This document shows positions 1,348-13,544 of a DNA stretch of 34,073 bases, piece after piece. The notes beneath the pieces were generated by a model. It did not search any database, was not told the origin of the DNA, and saw only the letters and a list, made by a program, of their open reading frames with translations. Position 1 is the stretch's first letter. Each line of letters begins with the position of its first letter. The position numbers were made by a program, and so were the translations under genes. Origin of the DNA: Hyphomicrobium sp. (GTDB taxonomy: Bacteria; Pseudomonadota; Alphaproteobacteria; Rhizobiales; Hyphomicrobiaceae). Location: positions 1 through 34,073 of the forward strand of contig PEQZ01000016.1 in NCBI GenBank assembly GCA_002928395.1. Reading direction: 5' to 3'.

Positions 1348-2166
1348 TCACCGCCGGAGTGCGGGCGCGTCGATCGGGTGCCGCCGGGCACGGGACTTGA
1401 GATAAAGCTCGAGGGCGAGGTATTCGCGCGATCCGAGCTCGAAGAGCTGCGCCCGGACACCGAGCTGGCAAGCGCGCAACCGGCGATGCAGCGATCCGAG
1501 TGTCTGCCACTCGAGGCGATAGGCCGGGTAACCGGTCGGTACCGCGCTCGAGATCGTGTCGCCGCGCAGCTTCCGCCCCACGCTCTGATCGTGGCATTGC
1601 GTGCAGGCGACGTTGAGCTGGCCTTGCCGCTCATTCCAGAGTTGCTGGCCGTAGGCGTAGAATGCGCTGGCCGGCCCGTCGATGGAAACGGCAAGCGGTT
1701 CGCCATTTGAAAGTGCCGTCAGATAGGCGGTCAGTGCGAGCAGTTCATCCGTCTCGTAGTCGAGCGGCGGCAGGCTCTGCCGCACGATGCGGCACTCATT
1801 GACGCGGCCTTCCAGATTGACCAGCTGGCCGCTTGCGGCATCGACCGCCGGCAGCCGCGCGGCGACCCCGCGCATAGAGGTCTCGGCACGGGCGTGGCAA
1901 GTGGCGCAGCTCGGAGCCCCGCCGGGAGGCGGCTGGGTGAACAGCCGCTCGCCCTGCTCGACCCACAACATTCCGCGGTTGCGAATGGGATCCGCTTGCT
2001 CGGCTCTGAGTGCAGGCGACAAAAACTCGCTTGCCGAGCGCAGGGGCTGTGCTTCGACCCGAAGCGGCCCGTCAGCGGCGAAGGCGCCGATCGTATGGCT
2101 GTGGATCAGGACAATTGCGATGCAAAGGACCCTGAGACCACCCATGGGCTTTCGACGCCCGCTCAC
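1348..2166 (-). CDS. soxA: Diheme cytochrome SoxA (thiosulfate oxidation)
   Basis: SoxA is the diheme subunit of periplasmic SoxAX, which oxidatively couples a sulfur substrate to the carrier cysteine of SoxY. An N-terminal signal peptide precedes AADG. Two c-type heme motifs are visible: CATCH (about residues 87-91) and CTQCH (about 188-192). Near the C terminus, RRLRACQLGVRAQ holds a cysteine at about 233 that matches the persulfide heme ligand of SoxA. The 272-residue length is typical. I chose the GTG whose first base is at 2166 because it overlaps the soxZ stop in a GTGA arrangement, which suggests translational coupling. An ATG at 2145 is an alternative that still leaves a signal peptide. 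It is the last gene of the operon. The 209 bp between it and the convergent SoxYZ-like gene show no convincing gene. Confidence 0.9.
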   Translation of the reverse strand: MSGRRKPMGGLRVLCIAIVLIHSHTIGAFAADGPLRVEAQPLRSASEFLSPALRAEQADPIRNRGMLWVEQGERLFTQPPPGGAPSCATCHARAETSMRGVAARLPAVDAASGQLVNLEGRVNECRIVRQSLPPLDYETDELLALTAYLTALSNGEPLAVSIDGPASAFYAYGQQLWNERQGQLNVACTQCHDQSVGRKLRGDTISSAVPTGYPAYRLEWQTLGSLHRRLRACQLGVRAQLFELGSREYLALELYLKSRARRHPIDAPALRR

Positions 2167-2492
2167 GTGACGGTCAATTGTCGCGTTTCGACGATCACCT
2201 CGCCGGTGTCGTCGATCCACGTGAACACGACGTCGCCGGACGATCGGGCACGCAGATTGAACGCGAAGAAGGGGTTGGCCGCAATCCCAGGGGCAACGTC
2301 TATGCGCAGCACTTCGGCGTCGAGATAGGCCACCGCGAACGTATGTATGATCTTGCGTGGCGCCACGTTCGGCCCTGCGTCCGTGTGCCCGGTGATCATC
2401 GGGTGCTGGATGGCAGTGCGGATCTTGATCGTCTCACCCGCCTGCGCCGTTGCTGGCATGACGATCCGTCTGGTTCTCTTTGACATGATCAC
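2163..2492 (-). CDS. soxZ: SoxZ sulfur-carrier scaffold subunit
   Basis: This 109-residue protein matches SoxZ, the immunoglobulin-fold partner that forms the SoxYZ heterodimer and presents the SoxY carrier arm to the Sox enzymes. Recognisable SoxZ features are IQHPMITGHTDAG early in the protein, then an acidic beta-rich C-terminal half with DDTG. It has no signal peptide, as expected, because SoxZ is co-exported with SoxY. The GTG start at 2492 overlaps the TGA of soxY (GTGA), and an ATG two codons later (2486) is equally possible. The stop overlaps the proposed soxA GTG. These overlaps on both sides indicate coupled translation of soxY, soxZ and soxA. Confidence 0.92.
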   Translation of the reverse strand: MIMSKRTRRIVMPATAQAGETIKIRTAIQHPMITGHTDAGPNVAPRKIIHTFAVAYLDAEVLRIDVAPGIAANPFFAFNLRARSSGDVVFTWIDDTGEVIVETRQLTVT

Positions 2493-2953
2493 CCCGCGTC
2501 CAGACAGGCGGCGAGCAGAACAACGCTCTCAGACTTGTCGGCATAGAGCGCGCCATCAGCCATCTGCGCGATGGCATGCACGCGTTGCGTCGTCCGCAGA
2601 CGGATCGACGTTTCGATCACGACGTCGCCAGTATCGGGCGCAATGTGAAACCGAGCAATCGTCGGAATAGGGTTTTGCTCCGATAGGAGATGAATGGTCT
2701 GCACCTGGTCGGGCGTCGCGAGCGCATTTTCGACGGTGATTTTGCATTCGACCGAGCTGCCACTCTCTGCGAGCGGCGATGTTTCCAACCTGATGCGTCC
2801 CGATTTGATCTCGCGGCCCTTGGTGAGTTCCGCAAGCGCGACGGTGAAAAGAGTCGAGGGCGGGGCACTCGTCTGGGCGAGAGATGGATAAGGAATCGCC
2901 GGGCTGGCAGCGATCCCGAACAGCACGCTACGGCGTCTCATCATCGGGGGCAT
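2489..2953 (-). CDS. soxY: SoxY-type sulfur carrier with altered C-terminal arm
   Basis: SoxY carries sulfur intermediates on a cysteine near its C terminus, in a mobile arm that usually reads GGCGG. This 154-residue protein has a signal peptide with an arginine triplet (MMRRRSVLFGIAAS), consistent with Tat export of the folded SoxYZ pair, although a hydrophobic Sec-type signal cannot be excluded. It then has a SoxY-like beta-rich body. The C terminus reads LLAACLDAG, with the cysteine at residue 150. The carrier cysteine is therefore kept but the flanking glycines are replaced. A second cysteine is at residue 70. It starts 4 nt after the soxX stop. An ATG at M4 or M5 is an alternative start. 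The assignment rests on position, length, terminal cysteine and partner genes. It is a divergent SoxY. Confidence 0.85.
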   Translation of the reverse strand: MPPMMRRRSVLFGIAASPAIPYPSLAQTSAPPSTLFTVALAELTKGREIKSGRIRLETSPLAESGSSVECKITVENALATPDQVQTIHLLSEQNPIPTIARFHIAPDTGDVVIETSIRLRTTQRVHAIAQMADGALYADKSESVVLLAACLDAG

Positions 2954-2957
2954 TGCG

Positions 2958-3416
2958 TCACCTCAATGTCTGCAGCCATGCCACCACGTCCTCGATCTCC
3001 TGCGCCGTCAAGACCGGCTTGCCTCGGAACTGTTCACCGACGCGCCGCAATCCGTCCACCCGGTAATAGGACGGCATGAGCGTCAGAGGCGCGATCACCG
3101 ACTGGTCGACCAGCCGCAAGCGGATTTGTCCCGCCGTCAGCCGCGCGCCGATGCCACTCAGATCCGGTCCCACGTCGCCCGGAAACAGTTCGCCTTCGAT
3201 CGGAACCCGGTGACAGATCAGGCAGTTCCCCTTGCCGCGATCGAGCGCGATGTCTCGGCCACGAGACCCGTCACCGGTCGCACCACCAAGAGGTGTGTCG
3301 ATTGCATCGCCCGCCACCAAGTACGACTCCAGTGGTGTCGCATCCGCGCTGGGACGCGCAAATGCCGCGAGAACCAGTGCCGATACCAACCAGCCTGCCG
3401 CTCGAACTGCAGTCAT
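2958..3416 (-). CDS. soxX: Monoheme cytochrome SoxX
   Basis: SoxX is the small c-type cytochrome that pairs with SoxA. The 152-residue product starts with a signal peptide (MTAVRAAGWLVSALVLAAF) and contains one heme motif, CLICH, at about residues 65-69. Downstream, LTLMPSYYRV supplies a methionine at about 114 that matches the axial ligand of SoxX, and the protein ends with a cytochrome-like helix (LTAQEIEDVVAWLQTL). I chose the ATG at 3416 because it begins the signal peptide and clears the upstream gene. The longer frame to 3500 would overlap the hydroxylase and hide the signal. It lies 19 nt after the hydroxylase stop. Besides serving SoxA, it could accept electrons from the neighbouring molybdenum enzyme, which is inference from gene order only. 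Confidence 0.9.
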   Translation of the reverse strand: MTAVRAAGWLVSALVLAAFARPSADATPLESYLVAGDAIDTPLGGATGDGSRGRDIALDRGKGNCLICHRVPIEGELFPGDVGPDLSGIGARLTAGQIRLRLVDQSVIAPLTLMPSYYRVDGLRRVGEQFRGKPVLTAQEIEDVVAWLQTLR

Positions 3417-3435
3417 CCCGCGAGCACCCACCAGA

Positions 3436-5649
3436 TCAAGCCCTGATACGCTGATCCTTGATCGGCAGCGAACGGATCCGCTGACCCGTCGCAGCGGCAA
3501 TGGCGTTCAAGACCGCTGGTGCCGCCACCGCGATCGTCGGCTCGCCCACGCCGCCCCACCAGCCGCCCGACGGCATCACGATGGTCTCGACCTTCGGCAT
3601 CTCCGAAAGCTTGAGTGTGGGGTAGGTGTCGAAGTTCGTCTCGACCGCCCCACCGTTCTTGATAGTGATCTCCTGATGCAGTGCCGCGCCGAGGCCATAC
3701 ACGAACGAGCCCTCGACCTGCATGGCGATCTGCTTCGGGTTGACAGCATAGCCACTGTCCGTCGCGGCCACGATACGATGCAACTTGAGCTTGCCGTCGG
3801 CCGAAACCGAAACCTCGGCCAGGGCCGCAGTATAGCTGCCGAACGAGCGCATCATGGCGAGTCCACGACCTTGCACGCCGTCCGGCATCGGTTTGCCCCA
3901 TCCTGCCTGCTCGGCGACAGCCTTCAGCACAGCCGCAGCTTTCGGCTGATTGCCGAGCAAAGCGAGGCGGAACTCGAGCGCATCCCTGCCCGCCGCTTCG
4001 GCCAGTTCGTCCATGAAGCATTCAACGTAAACGGCATTTTGGTTGACGTTCACACCCCGCCAGAAGCCAGGAGGAACCGCCGGATTGCGCATGGCATGGT
4101 CGATCAGAAGGTTCGGGACCGAGTAGCAGAATGCGTGCTCATTGGCCGTTGGTTTCACCGGGTCGTTGGGCGCGACACCTTGGAACACAACGGGGTCCTT
4201 GCCATTCTGCAGGCCCTCGGGCCGCACGACGGACAGGATCGACTGACCCGAAATGCGCATGTGCAGACCAGTGAGGTTACCCTTGTCGTCGAGGCCGCCG
4301 ACCATTCGCCCCATGGTCACAGGGTGATAGTGACCCTGTGTCATGTCTTCTTCGCGACTCCAGATCAGCTTCACGGGCACGCCCGGAACCTGTTTGGCGA
4401 TCAGCACCGCCTGAGTCACATAATCCTGAAACGAGCCGCGGCGACCAAATCCGCCGCCGATATGGATCTTATGAACGTCGCACTTGTTCTGGGCGTGCCC
4501 GGCGGCTTTGGCGGCCGCGGCGAGCGAACCCTCGCCATTCTGGGTCGGGCACCATACTTCGCACTTGTCCGCCGTCCACACCGCCGTCGCGTTCATCGGC
4601 TCGAGCGTGGCGTGGTTCTGGTATGGCACGCTGTAGATGGCTTCGACCGTCTTGGCAGCGCCCGACAATGCAGTTTTCGCGTCGCCGCTGCTGTTGCCGA
4701 CGAACACGTCCTTGTCGGATGTCAGGCCCTCGGTCAGCAACGCCTTGATCGCGGCGCTGGACAGGTCCTTGTTCGGACCGGGGTCCCAGGTGATGGGCAG
4801 TGAATCGAGCGCCATCTTCGCCCGCCACCACGTGTCGGCCACAACCGCCACCGCATTGTCGCCGACCTGCACCACGTACTTCACGCCAGGCATAGCCTTG
4901 ACTTTTGCGGCATCGAAACTCGTGACTTTTCCGCCGAATGTCGGACATGCCCTGATGGCCGCGTTGAGCATGCCCGGCAGCTTGAGATCGATGCCGTACA
5001 CGAGCTTGCCGTTGGTCTTGTCGGCCGTATCGAGGCGCGGCATCGGCTTGCCGATGATCTTCCAGTCCTTGGGATCTTTGAGCGCGACACCTTTGGGCTG
5101 CTCGATCTTCGCAGCGGCCGCAGCCATCTGGCCGAAACTGGCGGACTTCCCCGAAGCCTTGTGCGTGAGAATGCTTTCGGCCGCCACGATCTCGCCCACC
5201 GGCACCTTCCACTCGGCGGCCGCCGCGAGCTTCAGCATTTCGCGCGCTGTCGCCCCGCCCATCCTGACATAATCGTGCGACGTGCGAATGCCGCGCGAAC
5301 CACCCGTTCCGAAATCCTTCCAAATGCGGTCGCGAGCGAGATTTTGTCCCGGCGTCGGATACTCGGTGGTGACCTTGCTCCAATCGCACTCGAGTTCCTC
5401 GGCGACGAGCTGAGCGAGACCCGTCAGGGTGCCTTGGCCCATTTCCGACCGGGCGATGCGGATGACCACCGTATCGTCGGGCTTCACGACGACCCAGGCG
5501 TTGATTTCAGGAGCGGCAGCCCCGGCCGCACCCGCGGCGGCATGGGCCGGGTTGGCGTCAAACGGGATGTGGAAGCCGAATGTCATACCGCCAGCCGTGG
5601 CCGTGACGCCGCCGACGAACGACCGGCGCGAGATCTCATGAGCGTTCAT
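3436..5649 (-). CDS. Molybdopterin-binding hydroxylase large subunit (xanthine dehydrogenase / isoquinoline 1-oxidoreductase beta family)
   Basis: This 737-residue protein belongs to the xanthine oxidase superfamily, closest in layout to the IorB-type large subunits that are exported and lack a FAD subunit. The N terminus has a twin-arginine signal (SRRSFVGG followed by a hydrophobic stretch and NPAHAAAG). Recognisable segments are RIARSEMGQG, HIGGGFGRRG (molybdopterin region), PGFWRGVNVNQN, and near the end GVGEPTIA, whose glutamate (about residue 703) is the catalytic base of the family. The start at 5649 is fixed by AAGGAGG at 5655-5661. The 2Fe-2S subunit lies 10 nt upstream and soxX 19 nt downstream, so it is part of the same operon as soxXYZA. 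The natural substrate cannot be read from sequence. Aldehydes, N-heterocycles or a sulfur-linked compound are all possible. Confidence 0.9.
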   Translation of the reverse strand: MNAHEISRRSFVGGVTATAGGMTFGFHIPFDANPAHAAAGAAGAAAPEINAWVVVKPDDTVVIRIARSEMGQGTLTGLAQLVAEELECDWSKVTTEYPTPGQNLARDRIWKDFGTGGSRGIRTSHDYVRMGGATAREMLKLAAAAEWKVPVGEIVAAESILTHKASGKSASFGQMAAAAAKIEQPKGVALKDPKDWKIIGKPMPRLDTADKTNGKLVYGIDLKLPGMLNAAIRACPTFGGKVTSFDAAKVKAMPGVKYVVQVGDNAVAVVADTWWRAKMALDSLPITWDPGPNKDLSSAAIKALLTEGLTSDKDVFVGNSSGDAKTALSGAAKTVEAIYSVPYQNHATLEPMNATAVWTADKCEVWCPTQNGEGSLAAAAKAAGHAQNKCDVHKIHIGGGFGRRGSFQDYVTQAVLIAKQVPGVPVKLIWSREEDMTQGHYHPVTMGRMVGGLDDKGNLTGLHMRISGQSILSVVRPEGLQNGKDPVVFQGVAPNDPVKPTANEHAFCYSVPNLLIDHAMRNPAVPPGFWRGVNVNQNAVYVECFMDELAEAAGRDALEFRLALLGNQPKAAAVLKAVAEQAGWGKPMPDGVQGRGLAMMRSFGSYTAALAEVSVSADGKLKLHRIVAATDSGYAVNPKQIAMQVEGSFVYGLGAALHQEITIKNGGAVETNFDTYPTLKLSEMPKVETIVMPSGGWWGGVGEPTIAVAAPAVLNAIAAATGQRIRSLPIKDQRIRA

Positions 5650-5654
5650 GGCTG

Positions 5655-5661
5655 CCTCCTT
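5655..5661 (-). promoter_or_regulatory. Strong Shine-Dalgarno for the hydroxylase, overlapping the upstream stop codon
   Basis: AAGGAGG on the - strand ends 5 nt before the ATG at 5649. It overlaps the TAA of the 2Fe-2S subunit gene (5660-5662), a typical coupled arrangement. It rules out the longer open frame that extends to 5766. Confidence 0.75.
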
Positions 5662-6124
5662 AGCCTTTCGAGTTGCTGGTTCCGGCGGCCGAGTGGATCG
5701 CCGCCCTGACACGGACAAACGTCCCGCATCGGCAGATGTTCGCCATGGCGGCATCGATGTCGGCATCGGTCGGCTTCGGCTTCTCTGCGAGAAGTGCTGC
5801 GGCGGTCATGATCATTCCGCTCTGGCAATAGCCACATTGCGGCACGTCCATCGCCAGCCACGCCTTCTGCACGGGGTGGCTGCTGTCGGGAGACAGGCCC
5901 TCGATCGTGACAATCTTTTGCTGTGCCGTCACCGACGAGACAGCGATCCCGCAAGCGCGGGTCGCGCGGCCATCGATGTGGATCGTGCAGGCACCGCATG
6001 CGGCGATGCCGCAGCCGTACTTCGTTCCGGGCAGATCGAGCTGCTCACGCAGCACCCAAAGAAGCGGCGTCGATGGATCGGCGTCCACCTGCACCATCTT
6101 GCCATTGACGTTGAGCTGGGCCAT
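5660..6124 (-). CDS. 2Fe-2S subunit of the molybdenum hydroxylase
   Basis: This 154-residue protein is the small electron-transfer subunit that partners the molybdopterin-binding chain downstream. The plant-type 2Fe-2S cluster ligands are visible as CGIAACGAC plus RAC (C38, C43, C46, C58). The second cluster is formed by CGYC (C97, C100) and ICRCGTF (C131, C133). There is no signal peptide, which fits co-export with the Tat-bearing large subunit. The ATG at 6124 is preceded by AAAGGAG at 6134-6140 with 9 nt spacing. It is the first gene of the - strand operon that continues through soxA. No FAD-binding subunit gene is present nearby, so electrons probably pass to a cytochrome or another external acceptor. 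Confidence 0.92.
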
Positions 6125-6665: not shown

Positions 6666-7547
6666 TCACCGCTCGGGAACCTGTGCGACGTCGACGCTGA
6701 CGGAAACCGTGTGATCCCCCCCGCCGACGATCACTCCGCTGATTGGGCAGACGTCCGCGTAGTCTCGCCCATGGGCGACGAGGACGTGCTCGTCCCCGAC
6801 GGCAAGGCCGTTGGTCGGATCGAACTCCCGCCATTTTGTTTCCGGCGCCCAGACCGCGATCCACGCGTGCGAGGCATCGGAGCCGGTGAGCTTAGGCTGA
6901 CCCGGCGGCGGGTGGGTGAGAACATAGCCGCTCATGTACCGGGCCGGTATGCCGTGGGCTCTCAAGGCGGCGAGCGTGAGGTGCGCAAAGTCCTGGCAGA
7001 CGCCACGGCGCGTCTTCAGAACTTGTGCGATCGGGGTCGAGATGTCGGTGGCGGTGGAATCGAATGTGAATTCCCGATAGACGCGCCGTGTCAGGTCGAA
7101 AACGGCTTCCAGCACCGGCCGGCCCGGGAGAAACGAGGACGCCGCGTAGTCCCGGATCGCCAGCGTCGCACCCGTGAGCCGCGAGGCACAGCGATTTTGC
7201 ACGACGCCGATGTCGATGCGTTCGCCGGGCGGATACAAGGTCTCATCGAGTGCATCCCATGGCGTGGTCTGCGCGAAGTCGAATGCGACCGGCTTGAACG
7301 TCCTGATCGCGCTACGCGCGTTGAGCACGAACTCTCTATGCGGCTCCTCGATGTCGAGGATCGAGACGTGATTGCCCAAGGCATCGATGCTGTCGTTGCG
7401 CATGAAGGGAGCCGGCTCGATCAGCATGCTGTGACGAATGACGGTCTGCCGGCCGTCTGAACGCGGCACCAAGTGCACGCGATGCTGCGACCGGGCGACG
7501 GGGTGGGTGTACCGGTAGTGCGTTTTGTGGGTGACCTCGAACATCAT
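6666..7547 (-). CDS. Transglutaminase-like cysteine protease family protein
   Basis: This 293-residue cytoplasmic protein has the bacterial transglutaminase N-terminal beta domain (FEVTHKTHYRYTHPV...HRVHLVPR, residues 1-80). A transglutaminase-like catalytic core follows, with cysteine in RRGVCQDFAHL (C184), histidine in SDASHAWIAVW (H227) and aspartate in FDPTNG (D243). All three catalytic positions are present. Members of this family in such clusters are thought to act as peptidases or amide-bond-forming enzymes, and the actual substrate is unknown. Its ATG overlaps the TGA of the ATP-grasp/alpha-E gene (ATGA at 7544-7547), so the two are translationally coupled. It is the last gene of the three-gene - strand cluster. 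Confidence 0.9.
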   Translation of the reverse strand: MMFEVTHKTHYRYTHPVARSQHRVHLVPRSDGRQTVIRHSMLIEPAPFMRNDSIDALGNHVSILDIEEPHREFVLNARSAIRTFKPVAFDFAQTTPWDALDETLYPPGERIDIGVVQNRCASRLTGATLAIRDYAASSFLPGRPVLEAVFDLTRRVYREFTFDSTATDISTPIAQVLKTRRGVCQDFAHLTLAALRAHGIPARYMSGYVLTHPPPGQPKLTGSDASHAWIAVWAPETKWREFDPTNGLAVGDEHVLVAHGRDYADVCPISGVIVGGGDHTVSVSVDVAQVPER

Positions 7548-10096
7548 GTGGGCAACCCCACCTGCATACGTTGCGAAGCCTCTTCGGCCAGATTGAAATA
7601 ATGGCGCCCTATCGCATTGGAGAGGTCAGGCAGCACCCGCACGTAGTCGCCGATGGTCGCCGCGAGTTTCATGCGGCCCGGCTCTGCCGCGAGCGCCTCC
7701 ACATCGGCAAGGCGCGCCGTTGTGAGGAGCGACAGGATAATCCGGCGGTCCTCGGACAGGCTCGCCCCGCGCTGGCCGCTCGGCAGGCCTTCCAGGTGGC
7801 TGGAAATTGCGGAGAGCTGGTAGGCGAGCGAACGAGGATTGGCTTCGTCCAGGAGCAAGAGATCGAGCACAAGCGGCAGGCAGGGATCGAGCCGGTAGCG
7901 CGAGCGGTAAGTGATGAAGCTATCGGCAAGCTCCAGGATCAGCTGCAGCGCCGGCATCTCCTCTTCCTGGTCGGCGGGTTCAGTGAACAGCACCAGAATG
8001 GCCTCGGAGAGATTGTAGGCCCGCTCCAGCCGACGGCCCATGTCGAGAAACGACCAGCCGAAATTTCTCGTCATGTTTTCATGCATGAGGCCGTTGAAGG
8101 CAGCGACCGAAGCAAGTCCTTCTTCGAGGAGATCAAGCAGCGCGTTGGGCTCGGCGCGGCTGAGCGAGGTGATGTAGGTATCGCCCGGCCGGAAGCGAGA
8201 CAGCGTCTGCCAAGCCTCGAACGATAGCCTGTCGCGGGCCAGGCTGGCGCACCGATAGATGTCCTCGAACGTACGCTCCAACGAGCGATCGCCGCGTCGG
8301 TCGGTGACGAGGATCTTGCACAGCTGCTCGATATCGTCCTCGCGCGCAAGCTGGCGACCGCCGTCGGGCGCCGTCTCGCCGATCAGCACCTTGAGGCCGC
8401 GCCGCGCCGCATCCAGACCGCCATCGGTATCCTCGACGAGCCTTCGGCAAGCGCCGCGCAACACGCGCATCACCCAATCGGCCCGCTCGTTGTAACGTCC
8501 CAGCCAGAACAGATCGTCCGCGACACGGCTCTGAATGACGCGCTGCGAGCGCTCGACCCTGGCGGTTTCGAGCATGGGGCGCCACAGGCTGACATGCGGG
8601 CGCTGCTCGTCGTCGGAGAGCACCCAGACATCGCGCGTATGGCCTTCTGGCGCACTCATACCCACCACGGACTCGGTGTTGACTGTCATGGCGAGGCCGC
8701 CGGGCATGACCTCATAGCCGCTTTTGGTGTGCACCACGTAGAGGCGCACGGCGAAGGGCCGGCGGACAAGCTGCCCACGGTCGAAGGCCGGTGCCTCACT
8801 GAACGCGATCGCTTCCTCGGCAACGAGGCTGCTGCCGAGCAGCGAGATCTGGGCGCCGAGCGTTTGCTTCTCAGAGTCGGAAAGCAACTGTGCGGCGGTG
8901 CCAAGCGCGGCGTGCCCAGGCCGACCGGTTCCTTCCTGCGCCTTGCGGACCACGTAGCGGTCGAGATTTTCGAGCACGTGCCGTCGCATTCGAGCGTCGC
9001 CGAGCCACAGTCGGGGCGCATCGGTCAGTGCAAGCGGCTCGCCCAAGATCTCCTGTGACAAGCGTTCCAGATAGGGGCCGAGCGCGCGATTCTGCACGAC
9101 CGCCGAGCCGATAGCGTTGACCACCAGGCGCGGGTTGGAGCGGTTGACCCGGAGCAGCCCCGGTGGCCCATGGAACCCGCCAGGGTCGAGCTCCAGGGCA
9201 TCAACCAGTCGACCATCGACGCAGCGGATGATGAGGTCGATCTCCTTGAGGCCTTCGAGCGTCTTCAGATAGACTTTGTTACCCTTGGTCCTGAGATCGG
9301 CTCCCTCGACCAGGAGATACCCGAGGTAGCGCGCCAAATATGCGTGAGAGAAATAATCATCGTGGTGCGGCCCCGGTGTCAGCAGTGCGATCCGGGCGTT
9401 GTCACGGCCCGCATGCGTCGCAAGAGCCGCCTGCACGTTGTGAAAGAACGGCGCCAGCCGCAGTGCGTTGCAGCGGTTGAAGATGTCACCTGCGACGTGG
9501 GTATGAACGACACGATTGGCAACCGCGAAACCGATACCTGCCAGTGTTTCGGTGTGACTGTCGATGACCATCCAGCGGCCATCCGCGCTGCGTGCCAGAT
9601 CGGCGGCGTAGGAGCGTAACGGACCCGCTCGAGGCACGATGCCCTGACACGTCATGATGTGTGACGGATCACTAAAGACAAGCTCGGGCGGCACGAGACC
9701 GCGCCGCAAGAAGTTCGCGTCACTATAGATGTCAGCAAGCAGGGTATCGAGCAGATGCGCCCGCTGGATCAAGGCGGCCTCGAGCCAGGACCACTCCGAC
9801 ACCGAAAACACGATCGGCGCAAGATCGAGCTGCCAGCGCTGCGCGGGATGTGTGGGGTGGGAAAAAATGTCGTAGGCTATGCCGGTCTCTCGCACCCGCC
9901 GGTCGATGCGGGCCGAGCGGGCCGCCAATTCCTCCGGAGCAAGTTCCTCGAAGGCGGAAAGCAGCGGATGCCAATGCGGGCGAACCTGGTCGGCGCTTGC
10001 CAAGGCCTCGTCGAACCCGTGCGGGGAGGAGGCCCTGTAAGCATCCAGCAGCGTCGAACGGGTCTCGCCGGCAGCGGCTCTTGCAGTCTTCACCAT
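7544..10096 (-). CDS. Circularly permuted ATP-grasp / alpha-E domain fusion protein
   Basis: This 850-residue protein joins two families usually encoded as adjacent genes. Residues from about 80 to 480 match the circularly permuted type 2 ATP-grasp domain, with recognisable segments DLAPIVFSVSEW, VIDSHTETLAGIGFAVANR, LTPGPHHDDYFSHAYLAR, and FHGPPGLLRVNRS. Residues from about 520 to 840 form the helical alpha-E (DUF403) domain, beginning RVADDLFWLGRYNERADWVMR and containing NFGWSFLDMGRRLERA. ATP-grasp enzymes of this group are predicted to make amide or peptide bonds, and alpha-E proteins are their constant partners. The fusion suggests a fixed complex. Upstream lies the large DUF2126 transglutaminase after a 154 bp gap. 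Downstream is the second transglutaminase with a 4 nt overlap. Confidence 0.9.
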   Translation of the reverse strand: MVKTARAAAGETRSTLLDAYRASSPHGFDEALASADQVRPHWHPLLSAFEELAPEELAARSARIDRRVRETGIAYDIFSHPTHPAQRWQLDLAPIVFSVSEWSWLEAALIQRAHLLDTLLADIYSDANFLRRGLVPPELVFSDPSHIMTCQGIVPRAGPLRSYAADLARSADGRWMVIDSHTETLAGIGFAVANRVVHTHVAGDIFNRCNALRLAPFFHNVQAALATHAGRDNARIALLTPGPHHDDYFSHAYLARYLGYLLVEGADLRTKGNKVYLKTLEGLKEIDLIIRCVDGRLVDALELDPGGFHGPPGLLRVNRSNPRLVVNAIGSAVVQNRALGPYLERLSQEILGEPLALTDAPRLWLGDARMRRHVLENLDRYVVRKAQEGTGRPGHAALGTAAQLLSDSEKQTLGAQISLLGSSLVAEEAIAFSEAPAFDRGQLVRRPFAVRLYVVHTKSGYEVMPGGLAMTVNTESVVGMSAPEGHTRDVWVLSDDEQRPHVSLWRPMLETARVERSQRVIQSRVADDLFWLGRYNERADWVMRVLRGACRRLVEDTDGGLDAARRGLKVLIGETAPDGGRQLAREDDIEQLCKILVTDRRGDRSLERTFEDIYRCASLARDRLSFEAWQTLSRFRPGDTYITSLSRAEPNALLDLLEEGLASVAAFNGLMHENMTRNFGWSFLDMGRRLERAYNLSEAILVLFTEPADQEEEMPALQLILELADSFITYRSRYRLDPCLPLVLDLLLLDEANPRSLAYQLSAISSHLEGLPSGQRGASLSEDRRIILSLLTTARLADVEALAAEPGRMKLAATIGDYVRVLPDLSNAIGRHYFNLAEEASQRMQVGLPT

Positions 10097-10190
10097 CCGG
10101 CTCCCGTTGGTTTCTCTGTATCTCGGCGGTCTGTTGCCGCCGTTTGGTCACCCCAGAGATTATCACGTAGCCAGCTGCCCGCCGCAAGGC

Positions 10191-10220
10191 CAGTGCCGGC
10201 CAGTGCCGGCCAGTGCGGCC
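10191..10220. repeat. Three 10-bp tandem repeats in the gap upstream of the ATP-grasp/alpha-E gene
   Basis: The unit CAGTGCCGGC occurs twice exactly (10191-10200, 10201-10210) and once with changes (10211-10220). It lies in the 154 bp between the DUF2126 gene and the ATP-grasp/alpha-E gene. Its role is unknown. The units could fold into small GC hairpins in the transcript. Confidence 0.7.
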
Positions 10221-10250
10221 AATCGCCAAAAGCGACGGGCGGCCGCGAAC

Positions 10251-13200
10251 TCAGGACTGCAGCCGGAGGTCGAGGGTCATCGGGTAGTCCGGATTGCGCG
10301 GGGTGGGCCGAGCCGACATTGTCCCGGCACTGTGACCGAAATCCTCGAATCTCGCCAGGCGCCGGCCTTCGGCCTCGTAGGCGTTGACTGGGAAGGCCTC
10401 GAAATACCGCCCGCCCGGATGCGACACGTGATATCGGCAGCCGGCCAGCGAGCGTCCGGTCCAACGATCGACAATGTCGAAGGTGAGGGGCACGTGGGGC
10501 GCAATTGTCGGATGCAGCGCCGACGGAGGCCCCCAGGCGCGGAAGCGCACGCCGGCGACCTGCTCGCCGAACGTTCCGGTCGGCGAAAAGGGCACCGCCC
10601 GGCCGTTGCACGCAACCGTGAACCGGTCGTCACTCAGGCCCCGCACGGTGACCTGTACACGCTCGAGCGACGAATCGACGTAGCGCGCGGTGCCCCCGGC
10701 GACGCCTTCCTCTCCCAGCACGTGCCAGGGCTCCAACGCATGCCGGATCTCGACCTCCAGGTTTCGGCCCTCCACCTTGCCGATGAAGGGAAAGCGGAAC
10801 TCGTAGTGGGGCAGGAACCAGTCGCGCGCCACCGGAAGCCCAGCGGTCTTCAAATCGTCGATCACATCGCAGAAGTCGGCCCAGATGAAATGCGGCAGCA
10901 TGAACCGGTCATGCAGCGCAGTGCCCCAGCGGACGAGTTTGTTGCGGTAGGGCTTCTCCCAGAACCTCGCGATCAGCGCACGCAGGAGCAGCTGTTGGGC
11001 AAGGCTCATGCGCGCGTGCGGCGGCATCTCGAAAGAGCGGAACTCGACGAGGCCCAGCCGCCCGGTCGGACTGTCGGGCGAGTATAGCTTGTCGATGCAG
11101 ATTTCGGCGCGGTGGGTGTTGCCCGTCACGTCGATCAGGAGATTGCGGAAAATGCGATCGACCACCCACGGGGGCACGTGCTGTGCGCCGGGATCAGGGA
11201 TTTGCGACATCGCAATTTCGAGTTCGTATAGTGCCTCGTGGCGGCCCTCGTCCACGCGCGGAGCCTGGCTGGTCGGCCCGATGAACATGCCGGAGAACAG
11301 GTAGGACAGCGACGGATGGTTCTGCCAGTAGGTGATGAGCGAGGCCAGCAGATCCGGACGGCGCAGGAACGGGCTGTCGCCCGGCGTCATGCCGCCCATC
11401 ACGATGTGATTGCCGCCGCCCGTGCCCGAGTGCCGGCCATCGAGCATGAATTTCTCGGTGCTGAGGCGGCTCTGGTGGGCGTCCTCGTAAAGTCCCGTCG
11501 TAATCGTGACGGCCTCGTCCCAGGTTCGCGCCGGCTGGATGTTGACCTCGATGACGCCGGGGTCTGGCGTGACCTTGATGACGTTGATGCGCGGATCGGC
11601 CGGCGGCGTATAGCCCTCGATGTGGATGGGCAACCGGGTCGATCGCGACGCCTCCTCGACGGCTGCAACGAGGGCCGCGTAGTCTTCGGCATCGGCAAGC
11701 GGCGGCATGAAGACGCAGACTTGGCCGCCTCGCGGCTCCACCGTCAACGCGGTGCGAACGCTGCCCATGATACCGGTCGGCGCCGACGACAGCTCGGACT
11801 GGGCATCCAGCGTGTCCTTGCGGCGGCCCTGCATCAGCACGTTCCGCTCTGGCAATGCGGGGGCATCCGCGAAGGGATCACGCTGCACGACATGGGGGAA
11901 GTGAACCGGTGCGAGATACGGCGCCGAACCGAGCGGGAGGCGAAAACCGAGCGGCGAATCGCCAGGCAACAGAAACAGCTTCTCGCGCCGCAAGGCCCAT
12001 CGCTCCGTGACCCAACGGCGGCCGCGAGCGCGTGAATGCCAGACCTGGATGGGCAGCGCATAGCCCACGGGCGACATCAACCCGCGGTCGAACACGTCGA
12101 TCACGCGTTGGCGCTCTACCGGATCTTCGAGCTTGTTGGACTTAGGTGTCACGTTGACCGGAAGCTTCTGCTCCACGAGCAGGAAATGCGCCGTGTCTTC
12201 GTACGCGGGCATGGCGCTCTGCGCGGGCAGACCCAGGCTTTCGCACAGCGCCGACATCAGCCGGCCGGCGTCGTCGGCGGTAACGGGCTTCTGCACGGAT
12301 GCCGGAGCGATGAGGCTCGGCTCCTCCCACAGCGGCAGACCGTCGGTTCTCCAGTAGAGGGCGAACGACCAGCGGGGAAGCTGCTCGCCTGGATACCATT
12401 TGCCCTGACCGTAATGCAGCAGGCCTCCCGGCGCGAACCGCTTCTGCAATCGACGGACGAGATCGTCGGCGAAGCGGCGCTTGGTCGGTCCGACGGCTGC
12501 CGTATTCCACTCCGCGGCATCGCGGTCGTCGCTGGCGACGAACGTCGGCTCGCCGCCCATGGTCAGGCGCACGTCTCCGGCATCGAGACGGGAATCGATC
12601 GTGTGACCGGCTTCGGTGATCTCCGCCCACACCTCCTCGGTGTAGGGTTTGGTGACGCGCGGTGTCTCGCGAACACGGGTAACGGCCATATGGAAGGCGA
12701 AGCTCACTTCGGCTTTCTCGTGTGAGCCGGTGATCGGCGCGGCGCTGACAGGATGCGGCGTAGCGGCGAGCGGAATGTGGCCTTCTCCGGCCAGCAGCCC
12801 CGAGGTCGGATCGAGGCCGATCCAGCCGGCCCCCGGAACGTAGACCTCGGCCCAGGCGTGCAGATCGGTGAAGTCGTTCTCGGCGCCTGTCGGCCCATCG
12901 AGAGCCTTCACGTCGGGCGTGAGCTGGATGAGATAGCCAGAAACGAAGCGGGCCGCGAGTCCCAGGTTTCTGAGAACTTGCACCATGAGCCAGGCGCTGT
13001 CGCGGCACGATCCGGATCGCGTTGCCAGCGTCTGCTCGCAGGTCTGGACGCCGGGCTCCATGCGGATCAAATAGCGCACGTGCTTTTCGAGCGCCCGATT
13101 GAGGTCGCACAGGAAGTCGATCGTCGTCATCGCGCTGTGATCGATCGTTGCGAGAAATGCGGCGAGCATCGGCCCCTTGGGATCGGGCTCCAAATACGGC

Positions 13201-13544
13201 TGCAATTCTTTCGCCGTCTGCGCGTCGTAGGTGAATGGCCAGTCCTTGGACGCGTCGTCAATGAAGAAGTCGAAGGGGTTGACGACGGCCATGTCGGCAA
13301 CAAGATCGATCGTGACCTTGAAGTGATCCGTGGTCTCGGGCAATACGACACGAGCCAGGAAATTTCCGAAAGGGTCCTGCTGCCAGTTTATGAAGTGGAC
13401 CGCCGGTTCGATCTTCATGCTGTAGCTGAGGATGGGTGTTCGCGCATGCGGCGCAGGTCTCAGCCGGATGATCTGTGCGTTCATCCCGATTTTGCGATCG
13501 TAGGTGTAGAAGGTCTCGTGTGTCAGCGCGACGTGTAATGCCAT
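10251..13544 (-). CDS. Large transglutaminase-DUF2126 protein
   Basis: This 1097-residue protein begins with a bacterial transglutaminase N-terminal domain (HVALTHETFYTYDRK). A transglutaminase core follows, with cysteine in TRSGSCRDSAW (C180), histidine in FTDLHAWAEVY (H229) and aspartate in GLDPTSGL (D245). From about residue 300 to the end it matches DUF2126 (VRLTMGGEPTFVASDDRD, GQGKWYPGEQLPRW, LDGRHSGTGGGNHIVMGG, SYLFSGMFIGPTSQAPRVDE). DUF2126 has been suggested to be related to glutamine-synthetase-like or amidoligase folds. The length is normal for the family. It opens the - strand cluster, is divergent from the zinc-ribbon metallopeptidase, and probably has its promoter in 13545-13805. 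One candidate there is TTGTCG and TATCGC separated by 17 bp (13645 down to 13617), which is weak. Confidence 0.92.
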   Translation of the reverse strand: MALHVALTHETFYTYDRKIGMNAQIIRLRPAPHARTPILSYSMKIEPAVHFINWQQDPFGNFLARVVLPETTDHFKVTIDLVADMAVVNPFDFFIDDASKDWPFTYDAQTAKELQPYLEPDPKGPMLAAFLATIDHSAMTTIDFLCDLNRALEKHVRYLIRMEPGVQTCEQTLATRSGSCRDSAWLMVQVLRNLGLAARFVSGYLIQLTPDVKALDGPTGAENDFTDLHAWAEVYVPGAGWIGLDPTSGLLAGEGHIPLAATPHPVSAAPITGSHEKAEVSFAFHMAVTRVRETPRVTKPYTEEVWAEITEAGHTIDSRLDAGDVRLTMGGEPTFVASDDRDAAEWNTAAVGPTKRRFADDLVRRLQKRFAPGGLLHYGQGKWYPGEQLPRWSFALYWRTDGLPLWEEPSLIAPASVQKPVTADDAGRLMSALCESLGLPAQSAMPAYEDTAHFLLVEQKLPVNVTPKSNKLEDPVERQRVIDVFDRGLMSPVGYALPIQVWHSRARGRRWVTERWALRREKLFLLPGDSPLGFRLPLGSAPYLAPVHFPHVVQRDPFADAPALPERNVLMQGRRKDTLDAQSELSSAPTGIMGSVRTALTVEPRGGQVCVFMPPLADAEDYAALVAAVEEASRSTRLPIHIEGYTPPADPRINVIKVTPDPGVIEVNIQPARTWDEAVTITTGLYEDAHQSRLSTEKFMLDGRHSGTGGGNHIVMGGMTPGDSPFLRRPDLLASLITYWQNHPSLSYLFSGMFIGPTSQAPRVDEGRHEALYELEIAMSQIPDPGAQHVPPWVVDRIFRNLLIDVTGNTHRAEICIDKLYSPDSPTGRLGLVEFRSFEMPPHARMSLAQQLLLRALIARFWEKPYRNKLVRWGTALHDRFMLPHFIWADFCDVIDDLKTAGLPVARDWFLPHYEFRFPFIGKVEGRNLEVEIRHALEPWHVLGEEGVAGGTARYVDSSLERVQVTVRGLSDDRFTVACNGRAVPFSPTGTFGEQVAGVRFRAWGPPSALHPTIAPHVPLTFDIVDRWTGRSLAGCRYHVSHPGGRYFEAFPVNAYEAEGRRLARFEDFGHSAGTMSARPTPRNPDYPMTLDLRLQS

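Follow-up and report, generated by a model that had tools for sequence, protein, structure and literature searches.

SoxXYZA genes joined to a xanthine oxidase-family molybdenum hydroxylase: a recurrent operon and a possible oxidation module independent of SoxB

Sox genes serve as markers of thiosulfate and sulfide oxidation in genomes and metagenomes. What, then, is encoded by an operon in which soxX, soxY, soxZ and soxA stand beside a molybdenum hydroxylase of the xanthine oxidase (XO) family, with neither soxB nor soxCD among them? Such an operon lies in the stretch of DNA analysed here, 34,073 nucleotides (nt) of contig PEQZ01000016.1 from Hyphomicrobium sp. (GenBank assembly GCA_002928395.1), hereafter the window. 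We find that the gene set recurs in three proteobacterial classes, that its SoxY has a changed carrier arm and that SoxB was not found in many of the genomes carrying it. The operon may encode an independent periplasmic oxidation module, in which SoxXA would load a variant SoxYZ and the molybdenum enzyme would oxidise the load; we hold this reading to be evenly poised between right and wrong.

Six genes in one operon

The earlier note on this DNA, made from its letters alone, had described a six-gene operon on the minus strand, and coordinates, spacing and family models confirm it. The genes run from 6124 down to 1348 in this order:

5660..6124, minus strand: [2Fe-2S] small subunit of the molybdenum hydroxylase (FeS); ATG at 6124; Fer2 and Fer2_2, XO-family small-subunit models
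3436..5649, minus strand: MoL, twin-arginine translocation (Tat)-type XO-family molybdenum-binding large subunit; ATG at 5649; MoCoBD_1/2, TAT signal model
2958..3416, minus strand: SoxX, monohaem cytochrome c (CLICH, distal Met); ATG at 3416; TIGR04485 above cut-off, aligns with 1h31_B
2489..2953, minus strand: SoxY variant with the arm end AACLDAG, not GGCGG; TIGR04487 is the best family; alignment
2163..2486, minus strand: SoxZ; ATG at 2486; PF08770 above cut-off, TIGR04490 below cut-off
1348..2166, minus strand: SoxA, dihaem cytochrome; GTG at 2166; TIGR04484 above cut-off, alignment with 1h31_A

No intergenic distance exceeds 19 nt: 10 nt separate FeS from MoL, 19 MoL from soxX, 4 soxX from soxY and 2 soxY from soxZ, and soxZ and soxA overlap by 4 nt. 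The start codons are choices made in the present analysis; an alternative GTG start for SoxZ at 2492 would give an overlap with soxY. That the molybdenum enzyme is Tat-exported and belongs to the XO family, as also proposed earlier, is borne out by its MoCoBD domains, its [2Fe-2S] partner, a twin-arginine motif and a GVGEP motif, an instance of the GxGE motif that we take to hold the catalytic glutamate of this family. SoxA (198.6 bits, cut-off 110) and SoxX (68.7 bits, cut-off 61) exceed the thresholds of their models, SoxZ falls below that of TIGR04490 (66.5 bits, cut-off 76), and in SoxA a cysteine aligns with the haem ligand at the active site of 1h31_A. SoxY fits TIGR04487, the 'SoxY-related AACIE arm protein', best, at 110.2 bits and below the cut-off of 172; it scores lower against the true SoxY model TIGR04488 (74.3 bits, below the cut-off of 125).

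Neither soxB nor soxCD lies inside the six-gene cluster, and no flavocytochrome c (SoxF) gene lies between MoL and soxX in the window. The earlier statement that SoxB and SoxCD are missing holds for the cluster and fails for the genome (2.32 Mb, 76% complete): contig C120 carries soxY (with a GGCGG arm), soxZ, soxB and soxC, and a second SoxC above cut-off is found on contig C6. A canonical Sox system is thus very likely to exist in the organism as well (soxB and soxC were found; SoxD was not searched for), with the six-gene cluster as an addition.

A second genome of the genus, G391, carries the cluster with a MoL 96% identical, the same gene order and an adjoining SoxYZ fusion. Ratios of non-synonymous to synonymous substitution rates (dN/dS) against G391 are 0.05 for FeS, 0.12 for MoL, 0.36 for SoxX, 0.18 for SoxY, 0.05 for SoxZ and 0.19 for SoxA, and all six window genes are under purifying selection. 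A MoL match at E 1e-200 is absent from G344, of the same genus, and also from G713, which is only 54% complete.

Recurrence across three classes

In the order there are at least 41 known carriers (39 loci from a search of 397 genomes with TIGR04487, the window's genome and G391), and among the matches listed the cut-off of 172 was exceeded in 25 of the 397 genomes. Among the same listed matches, 39 extend to the last two positions of the profile, and all 39 of these loci, when fetched, have MoL together with SoxXYZA; flavocytochrome c genes stand between MoL and soxX in some of them and not in others. MoL was found at none of the 12 wide loci with another SoxY, whose match ends at position 144 (L052-L055, L060-L066 and L169). 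In a class-level sample of 289 genomes, we took the 17 best-scoring loci outside the window's genome; G522 came next in rank and was left out, as were several weaker SoxY matches likewise reaching the end of the profile. MoL is present at 14 of the 17; at two others the contig stops short (L183, L185) and L195 has no MoL.

Approached from the enzyme, the picture is similar. The MoL alignment was scanned against one genome per species across 84,980 species, and the best 80 loci, 18 of them from Bradyrhizobium, were analysed: 58 have SoxXYZA (in L121 with divergent Sox genes), 4 have SoxYZ only, 8 were set aside as too near a contig edge (less than 2.5 kb downstream) and 10 have no such genes within the locus, one of these (L085) having a SoxYZ pair with a different tail at a greater distance. 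Genera with the set include Mesorhizobium, Bosea, Microvirga, Ancylobacter, Azospirillum, Skermanella and Belnapia; Duganella, Noviherbaspirillum, Roseateles and one gammaproteobacterial metagenome-assembled genome are further carriers, so that the gene order recurs in Alpha-, Beta- and Gammaproteobacteria. Loci L078, L094, L124, L125 and L141, and likewise L074, come from environmental assemblies titled Bordetella parapertussis or Chitinophaga pinensis; on the tree their MoL falls among those of other proteobacteria, and the titles may be wrong.

At L074, L090, L124 and L125 the operon is reduced to four genes, FeS-MoL-SoxY(AACLEEL)-SoxZ, without SoxXA. The idea that SoxXA is dispensable, which these operons prompted, was tested and dropped: SoxA is encoded elsewhere in every one of the four genomes, and so is a second SoxX-Y-Z-A locus whose SoxY tail is related. 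One of these loci has its own FeS-MoL, and one breaks off within soxA where the contig ends.

A changed arm and an intact loading enzyme

Conservation was read from 126 full-set loci and 137 SoxY tails, numbers that include duplicates (L048/L108, L120/L213, L070/L182 and probably L127/L159) and many Bradyrhizobium. The tail pattern of the linked SoxY is xAC-x-[DE] rather than GGCGG, and the residue at Cys+2 is acidic in 135 of the 137 tails, L081 and L085 being the exceptions. SoxA has two CxxCH motifs at 125 of the 126 loci; the column of its catalytic cysteine has a conservation of 1.00 after rounding, and those of the flanking arginines 0.98-1.00. SoxX has one haem motif at all 126 and an MPx[YF] motif at 124, the same number at which MoL has G[VL]GE. 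Because nearly all tails are acidic and the catalytic residues of SoxXA are kept, the arm, at the level of sequence, is altered uniformly while the loading enzyme is intact.

Does the load consist of inorganic sulfur? A flavoprotein of the flavocytochrome c sulfide-dehydrogenase type is present at 75 of the 126 loci, and the cluster could be a SoxB-free Sox variant in which SoxXA puts thiosulfate, sulfide or polysulfide on SoxYZ, leaving the sulfane sulfur to be oxidised or removed by either the molybdenum enzyme or flavocytochrome c. XO-family enzymes hydroxylate carbon and are known for that rather than for sulfur, which speaks against such a role. The conserved arginines flanking the catalytic cysteine of SoxA favour it, as arginines so placed are believed to grip thiosulfate in the SoxA family (PMC4423706; the papers cited by PMC number, here and below, are drawn on in part), but soxY2 of Bradyrhizobium diazoefficiens, whose type is unconfirmed, was non-essential for thiosulfate oxidation (PMC5748708), and a cluster of this kind in Starkeya novella showed hardly any expression in the growth modes examined, one of them on thiosulfate (PMC3797975). 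We consider an inorganic load rather unlikely.

Nor are the Sox proteins easily reduced to electron carriers. The solved chain nearest to MoL is 8gy3_C, both by profile (365 bits) and by fold (template modelling score 0.64, with 28% identity in the fold alignment); 8gy3 is the membrane-bound aldehyde dehydrogenase of Gluconobacter oxydans and the match is to its molybdenum (large) subunit. The AlphaFold model of MoL is moderate (mean predicted local distance difference test score 75.5) and gives nothing past the family assignment. The Gluconobacter enzyme reportedly has a cytochrome subunit of its own, and in the window SoxX directly follows MoL. The substrate might then be a free aldehyde or N-heterocycle, with electrons going from the molybdenum enzyme to SoxX/SoxA or to the haem subunit of flavocytochrome c; these would stand in for the relatives' cytochrome subunit, and SoxYZ would be a passenger. 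This would not account for SoxYZ being retained with a uniform arm or for the conserved catalytic cysteine of SoxA; furthermore, the best 80 loci show no SoxXA without SoxYZ, and four operons have SoxYZ beside MoL without SoxXA (with SoxA elsewhere in the genome). We judge it unlikely. The earlier note had weighed the same two ideas, SoxX simply as electron acceptor and a carrier-bound pathway. The former leaves SoxYZ and the retained SoxA active site unexplained, although electrons may reach SoxX or SoxA in any case. The latter is the better of the two, given the cysteines kept in the SoxY arm and in SoxA, the uniform arm and the many SoxB-less genomes; its chemistry would still be of the putative kind set out below.

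Carriers without SoxB

A search with TIGR04486, limited to strict E-values, detected no SoxB in 10 of the 41 known order-level carriers (there are at least that many), 9 of these 10 being at least 93% complete and one, G065, 100% complete on a single contig; SoxC above cut-off was not found in 8 of the 10 and is present in G315 and G375. At class level 16 of 18 genomes with this SoxY yielded no SoxB, nor did 13 of the 14 in which MoL was seen too. The same holds for 14 of 23 named carriers, including Duganella, Microvirga, Bosea, Mesorhizobium and Ancylobacter; these 23, out of the 58 named SoxXYZA loci among the best 80, are mostly isolates for which completeness figures are not available, and the named and unnamed counts overlap and are not additive.

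Since SoxB is missing from many genomes with this SoxY, the cluster is not merely a spare thiosulfate set, and where SoxB is absent something else must deal with the loaded carrier. The molybdenum enzyme is the obvious candidate, because it is usually encoded in the same operon.

Co-inheritance and the place of chance

Among 88 non-redundant loci (less than 93% MoL identity), pairwise distances of MoL correlate with those of SoxX (0.52), SoxY (0.59), SoxZ (0.54) and SoxA (0.58). The correlation with the obligate FeS subunit is 0.50, and the maximum in 2000 permutations was 0.23; shared species history adds to all of these values.

Chance adjacency, or a decaying duplicate of the canonical Sox genes, has in its favour soxYZBC in the same genome and the view of the 2013 authors, who saw no functional significance in the S. 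novella cluster under the conditions used (PMC3797975). The earlier note had tied this outcome to a soxBCD set elsewhere in the genome and to the lack of this gene order in other species. Although soxB and soxC do lie elsewhere (SoxD being outside the search), the gene order recurs across Alpha-, Beta- and Gammaproteobacteria, and chance adjacency is rejected on that ground. Co-inheritance, the uniform arm, intact residues, purifying selection and many SoxB-less carriers point the same way, and leave accident or decay highly improbable.

Evidence against an independent module

Several results weigh against the reading of the cluster as an independent oxidation module. The relatives of MoL, with 8gy3 the nearest solved, act on free aldehydes, and no neighbouring gene among 101 loci indicates a substrate. 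Linkage is incomplete: the window's family supplied 18 more MoL loci, of which 11 are accompanied by SoxXYZA, one (L204) by SoxYZ and one (L212) by SoxXYZ up to a cut ahead of soxA; the other five are without Sox genes (L202, L203, L205, L207 and L211). Conversely, L195, L239, L240 and L242 have SoxXYZA with a similar tail and no MoL in the fetched stretch; L195 has flavocytochrome c as well, and the genomes of the other three carry FeS-MoL-SoxYZ elsewhere. Such split arrangements weigh against strict physical linkage, with both halves still in the genome.

On the FastTree phylogeny, a gammaproteobacterial MoL clade (Thiohalophilus, Chromatiales-like) has no linked Sox genes, which means that MoL can exist without this carrier. 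Searched with the SoxY profile of the cluster, five genomes of the clade gave no match (two), a weak match (two) or a strong one (one), the last being the genome of L085, with a different tail. Other Sox-less MoL on the tree belong to a Reyranella/Inquilinus group, with a complete cluster elsewhere in the Reyranella genome (L241), and to a few single branches. Finally, soxB and soxC are present in the window's own genome, and in S. novella SoxAX2 and SoxYZ2 went undetected, one SoxF subunit was low and transcripts were very low (PMC3797975).

The gammaproteobacterial clade bears equally on whether SoxXA and SoxYZ maintain the enzyme, shielding the periplasmic molybdenum enzyme from reactive sulfur or supplying sulfur with which its sulfido ligand is restored, as an accessory system without a pathway of their own. 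Were that so, MoL would hardly be retained in this clade without linked Sox genes; the sulfido ligand is also normally inserted in the cytoplasm. The linked enzyme is nevertheless of the aldehyde-dehydrogenase type, and SoxYZ-like carriers also adjoin quinoprotein dehydrogenases, the carriers there having been proposed to act in disulfide formation or cofactor protection (PMC12997753). A maintenance role seems to us quite unlikely.

L071, L077, L082, L091, L093 and L100 are gammaproteobacterial relatives of the molybdenum enzyme without linked Sox genes; at L082, L091 and L100 the enzyme is followed by what are presumably XdhC-like and MobA-like genes. At L085 a SoxYZ pair lies 3.4 kb from the molybdenum enzyme (about 10300-11066), with another SoxY tail (GGAGACG).

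Overall, what the earlier note observed is confirmed and its interpretation is partly supported.

A possible mechanism and its consequences

If the cluster is an independent oxidation module, it might work as follows. Judging from the conserved residues, SoxXA would attach some sulfur compound to the cysteine in the arm of the variant SoxYZ. Linkage, co-inheritance and the changed arm suggest that the Tat-exported XO-family hydroxylase would then replace SoxB and SoxCD and oxidise the load, and the 2Fe-2S subunit would hand the electrons on to c-type cytochromes, of which SoxXA may be one. As the arginines of the SoxA family are thought to hold an anion and XO-family enzymes hydroxylate carbon, the load would be expected to be anionic, to contain sulfur and to offer a carbon for oxidation. 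The load could be an anionic organic thiol: the carbon beside the sulfur would be hydroxylated, an aldehyde or acid released and a persulfide left on SoxY. The flavocytochrome c of many loci could take up the released sulfur; its flavoprotein would fit the removal of sulfane sulfur, and the window's own cluster is without one. The organic-thiol step is the least supported part of this scheme and is offered tentatively, as falling well short of an even chance. For the loading step there is a precedent in the SoxA family. Its members are believed to attach thiosulfate by way of the cysteine that ligates the haem and to bind the anion with arginines; a mechanism based on copper has been put forward as an alternative (PMC4423706).

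Taken as a whole, this would amount to a second Sox-type pathway without SoxB or SoxCD, found across Alpha-, Beta- and some Gammaproteobacteria: SoxXA would join an organic thiol to a dedicated, acidic-arm SoxYZ, and an XO-type enzyme would hydroxylate the carrier-bound substrate beside the sulfur and so cleave the C-S bond. That complete proposal is a longer shot still. If a widespread SoxXYZA set does work with another enzyme and another substrate, many marker assignments of thiosulfate or sulfide oxidation would be wrong, a common soil-bacterial pathway would still lack an assigned substrate, and the swinging-arm carrier SoxYZ would be of general use, open to pairing with other oxidases.

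Neighbouring genes

No constant neighbour that could be a partner or a substrate clue was found among the 101 loci with a home-made gene caller, which small or overlapping genes may escape. A pair resembling a sensor kinase and a response regulator stands beside 10-11 loci, and a presumably XdhC-like gene beside five. The regulator/kinase-like pair adjoins L040, L043, L072, L084, L086, L089, L095, L098, L103 and L123, and may be the cluster's regulator.

In the window, a fused SoxYZ-like carrier at 233-1138 on the plus strand is convergent to soxA and scores 217 bits against TIGR04557 (cut-off 140). The fusion is also kept beside the cluster in G391 (L180), and another SoxYZ-fusion-like gene lies on contig C21 of the window's genome (L068). 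Upstream of the operon, 6666-13544 on the minus strand holds a transglutaminase-like gene, a circularly permuted ATP-grasp/alpha-E protein and a 1097-amino-acid open reading frame; the same three genes are upstream of the cluster in G391.

Comparison with known systems

The gene order in one species and variants of the SoxY arm in general are already known. Other arm variants occur in symbionts and free-living bacteria, for which altered substrate specificity has been proposed (PMC11237559). In our literature search, for which most subscription papers were out of reach, the breadth of the cluster, its arm signature and its independence of SoxB were not found in print, the existence of TIGR04487 apart.

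The closest precedent is in S. novella, for which a second cluster, soxX2Y2Z2A2F2 with an XO-family molybdenum enzyme (Snov_1975-1982), was described in 2013 (PMC3797975). In the part of that paper drawn on here, it has, like the window, SoxXYZA and an XO-family pair, no SoxB or SoxCD in the cluster and a canonical set elsewhere; its authors inferred no functional significance and allowed for other growth conditions. It differs in having SoxF, which the window lacks, a comparison made by published description, in which the S. novella SoxY tail was not seen.

With canonical thiosulfate Sox systems the window shares SoxXA and SoxYZ in which the haem ligands and the catalytic cysteine are conserved; it differs in having no SoxB or SoxCD in the cluster, the arm AACLDAG rather than GGCGG, and a molybdenum enzyme of another family. 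Its SoxY has the AACIE-like C-terminal arm of TIGR04487 (as AACLD), a family whose cut-off several linked SoxY proteins exceed; at 110 bits against the cut-off of 172, the window's own SoxY is a divergent member or near relative. MoL resembles the Gluconobacter oxydans aldehyde dehydrogenase (8gy3), its nearest solved relative by profile and fold, and the window cluster differs from that enzyme, which is said to have no Sox partner. The TIGR04557 carrier of the ped cluster resembles the window operon in linking a SoxYZ-type carrier to a periplasmic dehydrogenase of organic compounds (PMC12997753), whereas there SoxY and SoxZ are fused and the enzyme is a quinoprotein rather than a molybdenum enzyme.

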